Part shown: positions 24,148 through 33,770 of the stretch, one piece after another | Position numbering within the stretch: position 1 is the stretch's first letter | How the letters are laid out: each line of letters begins with the position of its first letter | Assembly (NCBI GenBank): GCA_000621425.1 | Contig: KK211275.1 | Coordinates: 536,523-600,522 of the forward strand | Direction: 5' to 3' | Source of the DNA: Lachnospiraceae bacterium AB2028 | GTDB lineage: Bacteria; Bacillota; Clostridia; Lachnospirales; Lachnospiraceae | Length of the DNA: 64,000 bases | Translations under genes and position numbers: made by a program | Notes under the pieces: generated by a model | Databases searched by the model: none | Told to the model about the DNA's origin: nothing | Seen by the model: only the letters and a program-made list of their open reading frames with translations

Positions 24148-25212
24148 TTAGTCTTTGCGGAGTTTGACCATATCGGCAGCCTTGCGTTTCTGCTCTTCAT
24201 TCATTGATGCGTAATGTTTCCGCGTGGTATTAACATCTTTGTGTCCCAAAACACTTGCCACTAAGTAAATATCACCACTTTCCTTATAGAGCTCGGTACC
24301 ATATGTGGAACGCAGTTTATGTGGCGTAATTTTTTTCAAAGTGGTAACCTGGGATGCATACTTTTTTACAAGGTTCTCAACAGCACGAACAGTGATGCGT
24401 TTGTTCTGTATAGAAAGAAATAACGCATTCTCATGCCCGGGCAAGGCAATGATACCCATGCGTTCATCAAGGTAGTTCGTTAATGCCTCTTCAACTTCTT
24501 CACCAAAATATACTTTGGCCTCGTTTCCGCCTTTTCTTACAATCCTAATGGCCCCGTTGTCAAAATCAATATCCTTAATGTCCAGACCTACACATTCAGA
24601 AACTCGGATACCGGTCCCCAGAAGAAGGGTAATAAGCGCCAGATCCCTCTGCATAGTGCGTGCATGGAATTTCTTCTGGTGTCCGCTTTCGCTTTCAGAA
24701 CCGTTTTCAATGATATCTAAAAGCTTGGCAACCTCATCAGGTTCTAAGCGTATTATATTCTTTTCGTGAAGCTTTGGCATATGAACAATAGAAGCCGGGT
24801 TAGATTTTAATAATTCCGACTCGTAAAGATACGCATAAAAACTTCTGAGAGCAGAAAGTTTCCTGCTTTTACCACGCTCATCATTTGTATGCGTGGTTCC
24901 GTCTGGCCCCTCATACCACGAAAGATATTCCATATATGACTCGATATCAAATTTTCCAATATTTTCTATAACCGAAAGCGGGATATCCTTGATAGAAGGA
25001 TAGGGGGTATCGACAATATGATCATTTACAAATTTGAAGAATATTTGCAGATCATAGGCATAAGCCACCTTTGTCCGGTTGCCCGTATTGTCAGATATTC
25101 CACGAAAAAAAACATGGCAATACGAAGGCAGCTCAGATTCAAGTTTCCTTAGTTTTTCTATGTTTTTTATTTTAATTTGTTCATGGTAGCTTTTACTGGA
25201 ATAATTTGCCAT
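24148..25212 (-). CDS. Tyrosine recombinase, XerC/XerD-like
   Basis: 354-residue site-specific recombinase. An N-terminal SAM-like core-binding domain (about 45-145) precedes the catalytic domain with R203 in GTGIRVSEC, a beta-hairpin lysine near RKGGNEAK (K227 or K233), H298 and R301 in PHKLRSTYG, H324 in LGHKDVNTT and nucleophile Y334 in RKHYASM. It converges with the yneA-like gene, with 11 bases between stops. No direct repeats, excisionase, or cargo genes flank it, so it looks like a resident chromosomal recombinase rather than an integrase of an element. Its target is unknown; chromosome dimer resolution is possible. The extra 40 residues before the core-binding domain are unusual for Xer. 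Confidence 0.88.
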   Translation of the reverse strand: MANYSSKSYHEQIKIKNIEKLRKLESELPSYCHVFFRGISDNTGNRTKVAYAYDLQIFFKFVNDHIVDTPYPSIKDIPLSVIENIGKFDIESYMEYLSWYEGPDGTTHTNDERGKSRKLSALRSFYAYLYESELLKSNPASIVHMPKLHEKNIIRLEPDEVAKLLDIIENGSESESGHQKKFHARTMQRDLALITLLLGTGIRVSECVGLDIKDIDFDNGAIRIVRKGGNEAKVYFGEEVEEALTNYLDERMGIIALPGHENALFLSIQNKRITVRAVENLVKKYASQVTTLKKITPHKLRSTYGTELYKESGDIYLVASVLGHKDVNTTRKHYASMNEEQKRKAADMVKLRKD

Positions 25213-28051: not shown

Positions 28052-28101
28052 CCATATATAACTATTCGTTAAAGTCTCATTTTGCGAATAGTTATATATG
28101 G
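28052..28101. repeat. Perfect 17-bp inverted repeat between convergent genes
   Basis: CCATATATAACTATTCG (28052-28068) is the exact reverse complement of 28085-28101, with a 16-base loop. It lies 10 bases beyond the lspA stop and 280 bases beyond rluD. Neither side has a T-tract: the plus side runs GGGCCTTTATA and the minus side GGAAAAAGCCC. It may serve as a bidirectional terminator without U-tract, a transcript end stabiliser, or a short palindromic repeat element. Confidence 0.8.
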
Positions 28102-32179: not shown

Positions 32180-32680
32180 TTAGCGGCGTGATTTTTTCTT
32201 AGGAGCCTCTTCCTCTATATCGTTTTCATAATCAGCTTCTGAATATACAGGTACCTCTTCCGGTGTGCAAGTGAACAGACCGCAAGGTGATCCGTCAACT
32301 GCAGATCCTGAAATAGGCTCAAAATGAGCATCTAATGCATATACTGAACCACAGCAGAAATCAATGATTCTCTGAGCGAGCTCTTCGTCGCATGACTCTG
32401 TATTCAGAATAACAGTATAGCCCTCACGGAGCATATCTGTAACCTTCTGAACATCATTAAACTTCTCCGGCTTAACCTTAACAACTACGCTACCCGCCTG
32501 GTATTCAGACTCAATAGGTTTTCTGCTTATAAAAGAAGAAATCTTTGCAGGTGCCTTTGCCTTTTTTGCAGGTCTCACATCCTCGTAATCATCTTCGTAA
32601 TCGTCCTCGTAGTCATCCTCGTAATCCTGACCGTTGATGTTAAGCTTTTCAGCCAGCTGTGAAAAAATAGGAATTGCCAT
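32180..32680 (-). CDS. sepF: Cell division protein SepF with acidic repeat
   Basis: 166 residues from ATG 32680, which has GAGGAGG 10 bases upstream; the longer reading to 32746 overlaps the promoter -10 and is rejected. MAIPIFSQLAEKL is the amphipathic membrane-binding helix of SepF; residues 19-34 are four DYED repeats; about 65-150 form the SepF globular domain (SVVVKVKPEKFNDVQKV, ILNTESCDEELAQRIIDFCCGSVYALDA). SepF links FtsZ to the membrane at the septum. The C-terminus ends KKKSRR. It follows yggS as in many Gram-positives but has its own promoter and terminator. The acidic repeat is encoded by near-identical 12-bp DNA units. Confidence 0.92.
   Translation of the reverse strand: MAIPIFSQLAEKLNINGQDYEDDYEDDYEDDYEDVRPAKKAKAPAKISSFISRKPIESEYQAGSVVVKVKPEKFNDVQKVTDMLREGYTVILNTESCDEELAQRIIDFCCGSVYALDAHFEPISGSAVDGSPCGLFTCTPEEVPVYSEADYENDIEEEAPKKKSRR
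32581..32628 (-). repeat. 12-bp coding minisatellite in sepF
   Basis: Four tandem 12-base units (for example CCTCGTAATCAT) encode DYED repeated four times in the SepF linker. Units differ at one to three positions. Copy number can change without frameshift. Confidence 0.9.
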
Positions 32681-32737: not shown

Positions 32738-32766
32738 ATTATGCAATATTTCGCACTTTATGTCAA
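32738..32766 (-). promoter_or_regulatory. sepF promoter
   Basis: Minus strand TTGACA (32766-32761) and CATAAT (32743-32738) with a 17-base spacer; start site near 32731, giving a leader of about 50 bases. It fixes the SepF start at 32680. Confidence 0.85.
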
Positions 32767-32863
32767 CACAATTTTAAAGAAAAATTTTTTAACCTTATAA
32801 AAAAGTGTTGATATACCGTGCTCTTTTTGTATATCGGCTAATAAACGGTTAAAGTTAATAGTT

Positions 32864-32953
32864 TTATGTAAAGATTTTATGTAAATAATTTATGTAAACC
32901 TTCACCAATGTTATGTAACCTGAATTATGTAAACTGGTGCAAATGTTATGTTA
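32864..32953. repeat. Array of TTATGTAA motifs upstream of sepF
   Basis: Exact TTATGTAA starts at 32864, 32877, 32890, 32911 and 32925, with a variant TTATGTTA at 32946. The first three have a 13-base period, later steps are 21, 14 and 21. The copy at 32925 reads TTATGTAAACT, identical to the XerD arm of Bacillus-type dif sites as I recall it. CACCA (32903-32907) and TGGTG (32935-32939) form an outer inverted pair. A related GTTACGTTAAC lies at 32967. It fills the otherwise gene-free interval between the yggS terminator and the sepF promoter. Confidence 0.85.
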
Positions 32954-33026
32954 CCCCCCCTGCCCCGTTACGTTAACTAATCATCTTTTTTTACTAAAAA
33001 AATTTTTCATGACGTGTTCCAGAAAA

Positions 33027-33048
33027 AACGACAGCAAGCGCTGTCGTT
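33027..33048 (-). terminator. Intrinsic terminator after yggS
   Basis: AACGACAGC (33027-33035) and GCTGTCGTT (33040-33048) form a 9-bp stem with a 4-base loop. On the minus strand the stem is followed by T6, ending the long mreB-yggS transcript 25 bases after the yggS stop. Confidence 0.92.
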
Positions 33049-33074: not shown

Positions 33075-33770
33075 CTATCTGACGGAATAATCCCTCTCTC
33101 CGAATATTCCTGTACCTACCCTTACATGAGTAGCCCCCTCTTCAACAGCAATCTCATAATCGCCACTCATTCCCATAGAAAGAACCGGTTTTTCCGGAAA
33201 AAAAACTCTCATATCATCACTATAAAGCAATTCCCGTAACGCTTTAAAATATGGTCTGTTAGTCTCAGGATCATCTGTATATGGTGCAATTGTCATCAAT
33301 CCACAAAGACGAAGATGCAAAAGAGCAGAAACGTTTCGAATAAGATTTTTGTTTGTTTCAATGTCTGATGTCCCAAACTTGCTGTCCTCTCCTGCAACAT
33401 TCACTTCCACCAAAACATCAACAACAAGTCCCCTTTTTGCTGCTTCTTTCTCTATTGCTTCAGCCAGATGTAAAGTATCTACACTGTGTATCAGAGCTGT
33501 CCTTCCGATAATATACTTAATCTTGTTTGTTTGTAGATGCCCTATCATATGCCATCTTACATCTTCAGGCATTTCCGGAATCTTATCGCACAATTCCTGC
33601 ACTTTGTTCTCACCAAAATCCCTGCTACCGGCAGCATAGGCCTCCTTAAGCATCTCTAAAGGCTTAGTCTTGCTAACGCTTATAAGAGTAACATCTTCCG
33701 GATTCCTGCCACTCCTCTTGCACGCCGCATTAATACGTTCTTTAACAGATTTTATATTTTCTGAAATCAT
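33075..33770 (-). CDS. yggS: YggS family PLP homeostasis protein
   Basis: 231-residue fold-type III PLP-binding protein without known catalytic activity, involved in vitamin B6 and amino acid balance. PLP lysine lies in LISVSKTKP, with DFGENKVQEL, WHMIGHLQTNK, GLMTIAPYTDDPE and SMGMSGDYEIAVEEGATHVRVGTGIFG motifs. In Gram-positives it neighbours sepF. It is the last gene of the minus-strand operon and is closed by an intrinsic terminator. Confidence 0.95.
   Translation of the reverse strand: MISENIKSVKERINAACKRSGRNPEDVTLISVSKTKPLEMLKEAYAAGSRDFGENKVQELCDKIPEMPEDVRWHMIGHLQTNKIKYIIGRTALIHSVDTLHLAEAIEKEAAKRGLVVDVLVEVNVAGEDSKFGTSDIETNKNLIRNVSALLHLRLCGLMTIAPYTDDPETNRPYFKALRELLYSDDMRVFFPEKPVLSMGMSGDYEIAVEEGATHVRVGTGIFGERDYSVR

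Follow-up and report, generated by a model that had tools for sequence, protein, structure and literature searches.

The presence of seven half-sites of the form TTAYGTWA in the gap between yggS and sepF, two minus-strand genes of which the first ends at 33075 and the second starts at 32680, raises the question as to what these sites do and which protein reads them. In an earlier note on this DNA, made from its letters, five exact copies and one variant had been seen in a gap before a division gene, the first three copies at a 13-base period, and were taken for a recombinase-binding array or an unrelated operator cluster. The copies, the variant and the period agree with the positions found here in the window, by which we mean the whole 64,000-nucleotide stretch of DNA that was analysed (Table 1); the division gene is sepF by its Pfam domain, the NCBIfam profiles giving it no match, and a seventh site had been missed. 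All seven lie on the plus strand between 32864 and 32978, and share the half-site TTATGTNAAC, which is GTTNACATAA when read toward sepF. Sites 1 to 5 contain exactly TTATGTAA, site 6 contains TTATGTTA and site 7, the one missed, TTACGTTA. An inverted repeat with a T run at 33027-33048, where the terminator scan lists no entry, is read as the likely terminator of yggS and would part the array from that gene. A search of the array region for an RNA element in Rfam gave no match up to E = 1.

Table 1 Features of the sepF gap and of the terminus region, in coordinates of the window
Feature	Position	Strand	Remarks
XerS-like single tyrosine recombinase	24148..25212	-	Best score XerS NF003462, 205 bits, below the 267 cut-off
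dif-like palindrome TATTCGTTAAAGTCTCATTTTGCGAATA	28063-28090 (feature 28057..28096)	.	At the GC-skew switch; kept in three close relatives
sepF, downstream of array	32180..32680	-	PF04472 SepF, 70.8 bits vs cut-off 27
Predicted sepF promoter TTGACA-17-CATAAT	32738..32766	-	11/12 consensus matches; about 2 such sites per region expected by chance
Promoter site TTATGTCAAC	32758..32767	+	Complement GTTGACATAA includes the predicted sepF -35 hexamer
Site 1 TTATGTAAAGA	32864..32874	+	Same site in G020, G031, G005
Site 2 TTATGTAAATA	32877..32887	+	13 bases from site 1; same site in G020, G031, G005
Site 3 TTATGTAAACC	32890..32900	+	13 bases from site 2; same site in G020, G031, G005
Site 4 TTATGTAACCT	32911..32921	+	Spacing 21; G020, G031, G005 read TTATGTTAAC
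Site 5 TTATGTAAACT	32925..32935	+	Spacing 14; same site in G020, G031, G005
Site 6 TTATGTTACCC	32946..32956	+	Spacing 21; G020, G031, G005 read TTATGTAAAC
Site 7 TTACGTTAACT	32968..32978	+	Spacing 22; same site in G020, G031, G005
Inverted repeat with T run, likely yggS terminator	33027..33048	-	Inverted-repeat scan
yggS, upstream neighbour	33075..33770	-	TIGR00044

Such a cluster is far beyond what base composition yields, as in 20,000 simulations of the 391-base gap under a first-order Markov model one strand held at most 2 occurrences of TTATGTAA and at most 4 of TTAYGTWA, compared with the 5 and 7 observed. Across the window TTATGTAA shows a mild excess (7 occurrences vs 3.7 expected, a count reached in 7 of 100 shuffles), and it is the clustering, not the window-wide count, that is the striking property of the array. 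When the whole 3.48-Mb genome (G000) was scanned for pairs of TTATGTAA 2-30 bases apart, the sepF gap with its four overlapping pairs and one other place (C6:94476) were found and the reversed-pattern control gave none, so that clusters of this kind, for which a genome scan had earlier been suggested, are rare. Two familiar kinds of bacterial site were considered and rejected. DnaA boxes are 9-mers of the TTATCCACA type while the array sites are TTATGTNAAC, and exact TTATCCACA was seen by eye between the sites in G013, G015 and G019 only. Repeats of the WalR/PhoP type are hexamers at an 11-base period, and across the sepF arrays forward spacings of 13 (30 times), 21 (14) and 14 (8) were found instead, with 11 never seen.

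Conservation was assessed in 35 genomes of the genus, 31 of which have a sepF match; loci were obtained from 30 (the match in G003 gave none) and enough upstream DNA from 29, with locus L023, whose upstream region is cut off, left out of the sepF counts. The array has not been lost in three close relatives, a loss that the earlier note had named as one that would refute its reading: G020, G031 and G005, in which sepF is 98%, 92% and 87% identical to the gene in the window, have all seven sites at unchanged spacings, while the intervening bases drift. In the alignment of these four species 51 of 56 columns are invariant within sites, as compared with 26 of 56 in the spacers and 80 of 125 in the flank toward the promoter. 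More widely, pairs 13-14 bases apart occur in 23 of the 35 genus genomes (control matches in 4), and a search for pairs at the level of the family matched in 13 of 150 genomes, the reversed control matching in 8.

The array keeps its place with respect to the predicted sepF promoter, which comes from a scan of the window. The decamer TTATGTCAAC, lying over the predicted -35 hexamer, is present in all 29 sepF upstream regions examined, and 21 of these have the array about 77, 88 or 107 bases away from it; the other eight (G002, G004, G006, G007, G008, G025, G029 and G033) have two to four sites that are arranged differently. Twelve genomes have their nearest forward array site 87-89 bases from the decamer, G011 has it at 77 and another 8 have it at 106-110, with an additional weak site at 89 in G027, which belongs to these 8. 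An inverted site stands between TTATGTCAAC and the array in 13 genomes, namely the 12 at 87-89 and G011. From one class to the next the distance changes by 11 or by about 19-22 bases, roughly one and two helical turns. A site on the predicted -35 in the window, together with a near-fixed distance and helical phase in the 21 array-bearing genomes, is the geometry that an operator acting on this promoter would need. Base preferences within the site cannot be proved from the sepF-array comparison, since its search pattern allowed no G at position 7 and left little of the core free to vary; when searched for with no such restriction, 2 of the 47 G000 sites and 9 of the 62 in G023 have G there.

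The sequence of the half-site resembles that bound by XerD. In dif, a 28-bp site made up of XerC arm, 6 bases and XerD arm, the XerD arms set out in Table 1 of PMC2731167 (a source of which part was available) have a common TTATGTNAAC core, a well-conserved A at arm position 8 and a variable position 7, and the array half-site shares both of these positions. Among the arms printed there TTATGTAAAC matches those of Syntrophus (...TTATGTAAACC) and Myxococcus (...TTATGTAAACT); the printed arms include TTATGTTAAAT, TTATGTCAAAT, TTATGTAAACC, TTATGTAACGG and TTATGTAAAGT and also arms like TTATGGAACTT, which the array does not use. The likeness to the XerD arm of dif recorded in the earlier note is therefore sound. 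The layout is different, as dif has two inverted 11-bp arms around a core of 6-8 bp whereas the array consists of seven direct repeats at a promoter and has neither XerC arm nor core. G000 encodes one XerD over the equivalog cut-off (353 bits, C1:110761-111621, L127), 458 kb from the array on the same contig, and of the other tyrosine recombinases scored none reaches the XerC cut-off, in a search that used the XerD model only and in which one match (L134) was left unscored and another (L135) overlaps a scored one (L132). A Firmicutes dif pattern had 3 three-mismatch matches in G000 and 3 in the control, in agreement with the earlier failure to see a full dif with an XerC arm. With no XerC over the cut-off and no canonical dif above the control, XerD appears to be an orphan.

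In 30 of the 35 genus genomes one or more XerD proteins score above the equivalog cut-off (32 genomes have a match at 1e-60), and 22 of the 23 good genomes have XerD. Eight genomes have XerD and no comparable array, which speaks against XerD as the binder, and in G023, which is 99% complete, carries the array and shows the strongest enrichment of the motif, no XerD orthologue was found. On this ground XerD was at first excluded outright, a position later softened because an assembly gap could account for a single absence among the 23 good genomes. We take the lysine of GKGNK in E. coli XerD to be the catalytic K172, and M[ST]RQxFW to be the motif by which XerD recognises DNA. In all 31 genus orthologues that were aligned (L127, L137-L165 and L186) the position of that lysine, placed via 1a0p, is occupied by Asp, with GKGNK aligning to [RK]D-x-x-K and the residue before the Asp being Arg in 28 and Lys in 3. 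All 31 retain R148 and the RQ of M[ST]RQxFW, and all 30 that have that part of the protein retain H244, R247, H270 and Y279, a retention due partly to selection, as the frame of each XerD was chosen by matches to its own catalytic motifs with the lysine position not used. An XerD with Asp at the lysine position and its recognition motif retained is consistent with a protein preserved for its ability to bind DNA; the basic residue that precedes the Asp, Arg or Lys, might stand in for the catalytic lysine, and Asp might also occur at this position in active clostridial XerD. Sites upstream of xerD number 0 to 2 per genome and follow no consistent pattern, and so give no sign of autoregulation, which we discarded. 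The response regulator P0001, whose gene is preceded by a site in G000, was rejected as another candidate, as it had no 1e-20 match in seven array-bearing genomes (G001, G010, G017, G018, G023, G024 and G027, of which G017 is 72% complete).

The window also includes the replication terminus. GC skew is weakly positive up to about 28 kb and clearly negative beyond, most genes change strand there, with lexA and a recombinase gene to the left of the switch on the minus strand, and of thirteen 20-kb samples taken along the contig the first nine have positive skew and the last four negative skew. At the switch lies a palindrome, AACTATTCGTTAAA-N6-TTTTGCGAATAGTT, between two convergent genes that we take to be rluD-like and lspA-like. 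When up to 3 mismatches are allowed, a pattern derived from it matches 20 of the 35 genomes, at least four of these matches being weak and the reversed control matching in 5. The recombinase, which is XerS-like, is encoded 3 kb from the palindrome, and the pair looks like a single-recombinase module that likely resolves chromosome dimers. Such a module resembles XerS/difSL and XerH/difH, in which one recombinase lies near an inverted-arm terminus site (PMC5357621, as far as its text was available), and differs from these in the sequence of its site and in a recombinase that scores below the XerS cut-off; the likeness belongs to this module and not to the array. It had been suggested that the tyrosine recombinase 8 kb from the array binds it, which we reject, as the likely target of this enzyme is the palindrome, whose sequence is unrelated to the array half-site. 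Our literature search did not find XerS, dif and Lachnospiraceae combined in one paper.

Half-sites also occur elsewhere in these genomes. Counts of TTATGTNAAC exceed those of the reversed control in G000 (47 vs 31), G005 (50 vs 25) and most clearly G023 (62 vs 6), and as they stand at 35 vs 24 in G024 and 33 vs 37 in G027 the enrichment is not uniform. Most sites lie outside genes, with 10 of 43 in G000 and 16 of 53 in G023 falling inside ORFs, a count that covers sites in fetched loci and leaves out those with G at position 7 and two G000 sites outside the loci used. In a 324-kb sample 15 of 24 occurrences of TTATGTHAA are intergenic, five of them at sepF, while 60 letter-shuffled motifs gave 159 of 709 and none more than 9. 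The genes near sites include nrdD (G000, G023 and G024), nrdR and flagellin (G023), zapA and fliD (G000), a flagellar rod gene (G009 and G022) and several surface, sugar-transferase and c-di-GMP (GGDEF/EAL) genes, as well as unrelated ones such as GAPDH and carbamoyl-phosphate synthase. Helicase genes that we name dinG-like on the strength of their Pfam domains have 4 to 8 half-sites over several hundred bases nearby (G023, G032 and G014; L168, L178 and L179), and at zapA in G000 a site was seen by eye just downstream of a promoter-like TTGATT-17-TATAAT. Of the 50 sites in G005, 20 were examined and 16 could be aligned to G000 (4 could not); the decamer is identical in 13 of the 16, matches at 9/10 in two and at 8/10 in one, a conservation that is overstated because the G000 loci were fetched around G000 sites and the flanks are often conserved too. 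A regulon of division, dNTP, motility and cell-surface genes is plausible on these grounds.

Four other accounts of the array were weighed. In B. subtilis XerD reportedly unloads SMC independently of recombination, and so also acts at sites outside its recombination role. That it does so at the chromosome terminus was reported by Karaboja et al. 2021, as cited in the parts available of PMC12322038, PMC8242196, PMC8357415 and PMC13342612. An array of XerD half-sites lying 4.8 kb from the dif-like site and skew switch, in G000 and three close relatives, could be such an unloading site, as G000 retains XerD with no match to XerC or canonical dif, and the skew flip near 28 kb at first led us to favour a terminus function. 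In G000 the array is close to the terminus because sepF is. Elsewhere the distance runs from 1.6 kb in G030 through about 18, 20 and 27 kb in G023, G028 and G018 (by coarse skew) to at least 100 kb in G001, where no skew flip occurs in the 100 kb downstream of sepF and the array is kept. Since the distance to the -35 site is maintained and that to the terminus varies, the array belongs to the sepF promoter, and many sites elsewhere in the genome, outside genes, likewise sit badly with unloading at the terminus; we dropped this account and regard it as improbable. A recombination site, be it dif or the attachment site of a mobile element, would explain the match to the XerD arm and the recombinase gene 8 kb off, and is largely refuted by geometry, the seven sites being direct repeats that lack both an XerC arm and the 6-base core. 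Canonical dif matches in the genome do not exceed the control and the local recombinase has its own palindrome nearby; we think this account very unlikely. The dif or recombination array put forward in the earlier note thus falls, as does its local recombinase, while its XerD-arm likeness holds, the array is conserved, clusters of this kind are rare in the genome and the window has the terminus in it. Least credible of all is a neutral minisatellite in an AT-rich gap, for although the all-genome pattern searches do pick up plain tandem repeats, such as the arrays of exact 21-base period in Hassallia, here the sites are conserved and the spacers vary, the spacings are mixed (13, 21, 14, 21, 22) and related layouts recur in 21 species, so that this account is largely refuted by conservation.

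A conventional transcription factor with a 10-base asymmetric site, bound to the same putative operator, is a serious contender, which we hold to be somewhat short of probable. The factor might head a regulon of division, dNTP, motility and cell-surface genes, the likeness to the XerD arm then being coincidence. All of the sepF promoter evidence fits it, as do the sites near zapA, nrdD, nrdR, dinG-like, flagellin, fliD, sugar-transferase and GGDEF/EAL genes, the 13 of 16 aligned G005 sites with a decamer identical in G000 (in a biased choice of loci) and the sites retained in G023 with no XerD match. Against it stand the failure of its candidate P0001 in the seven genomes above, and the close XerD-arm match and the retained, altered orphan XerD, which it leaves unexplained. 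Operators of known division regulators offer a partial parallel: the targets of MtrA in mycobacteria and WhiA in Streptomyces, in the portions of that literature available, include division genes, as here. CtrA too is a division regulator with multi-site operators that may be likened to the array. The motifs and spacings of all three differ from those of the array, whose host belongs to the Lachnospiraceae.

Conserved and promoter-phased upstream of sepF, the array most likely serves as an operator, made up of half-sites of the XerD type. It follows sepF, the sites lie mostly outside genes, and they are more conserved than their spacers. That this putative multi-site operator is read by the orphan XerD we consider close to an even chance and slightly under it, and a little ahead of another regulator, because the evidence from an orphan XerD is offset by G023, by the lack of a site of its own and by the possibility that active clostridial XerD has the same Asp. 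Of the alternatives in the earlier note, an operator cluster therefore stands by its promoter-locked geometry, and the word unrelated may fail if XerD is the regulator. A protein that sits on both the -35 site and the upstream cluster would set sepF transcription, more likely as a repressor than as an activator, given that one site covers the -35 box and that the zapA site is just downstream of a promoter-like sequence. The least certain step is the binder itself, which may be the orphan XerD with its DNA-reading motif and with the catalytic lysine motif lost. Resolution of chromosome dimers would fall to the separate XerS-like enzyme with a dif-like site of its own, and XerD, a former recombinase, may now be a regulator tying division and dNTP genes to the state of the chromosome. 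That the XerS-like module freed XerD, which then lost its lysine motif and became a regulator at sepF and at division, dNTP and motility promoters, is offered tentatively, as possible and yet rather on the improbable side. A recombinase is unusual as a promoter regulator.

To our knowledge little has been established on how cell division is timed to replication in Clostridia. No regulator of sepF in Clostridia was among the literature matches listed, as far as these could be seen; searches for the literal decamers returned work on dif and on B. subtilis expression promoters and, among the matches listed, no title on such an array. The array offers a handle on sepF control, as its DNA can serve as bait and the orphan XerD is a named candidate. 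Were XerD the binder, a site-specific recombinase would have become a regulator of genes once its former task had passed to another enzyme, and this would explain why the genome keeps XerD with no match to XerC or canonical dif.

Some further loci were observed along the way. Inverted half-sites occur as GTTTACATAA-N7-TTATGTAAAC in G000 (C6:43275-43301, L101:9276-9302) and as GTTAACATAA-N5-TTATGTAAAC in G023 (C73:165910-165934, L172), and in both the geometry is dif-like while the two arms are both of the XerD type. A scan of all genome contigs for arrays returned 80 loci among at least 118 stretches, many from Lachnospiraceae or Oscillospiraceae, and as these are mixed with plain minisatellites no conclusion was drawn from them. 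In both families some half-site arrays lie by a gene that we take to be RadA-like, the 12 flanking proteins forming one cluster, of which three were run against Pfam. One set (L267, L268, L282, L291-L293 and L318) has the order amidase gene, array, radA and in the other (L270, L278, L316 and L326) the array is between convergent genes. Finally, L129 (G000, C9) encodes a tyrosine recombinase of family NF040815 (246 bits vs cut-off 220) between two PF01420 genes, and this company of type I restriction specificity genes suggests a DNA-shuffling restriction locus.
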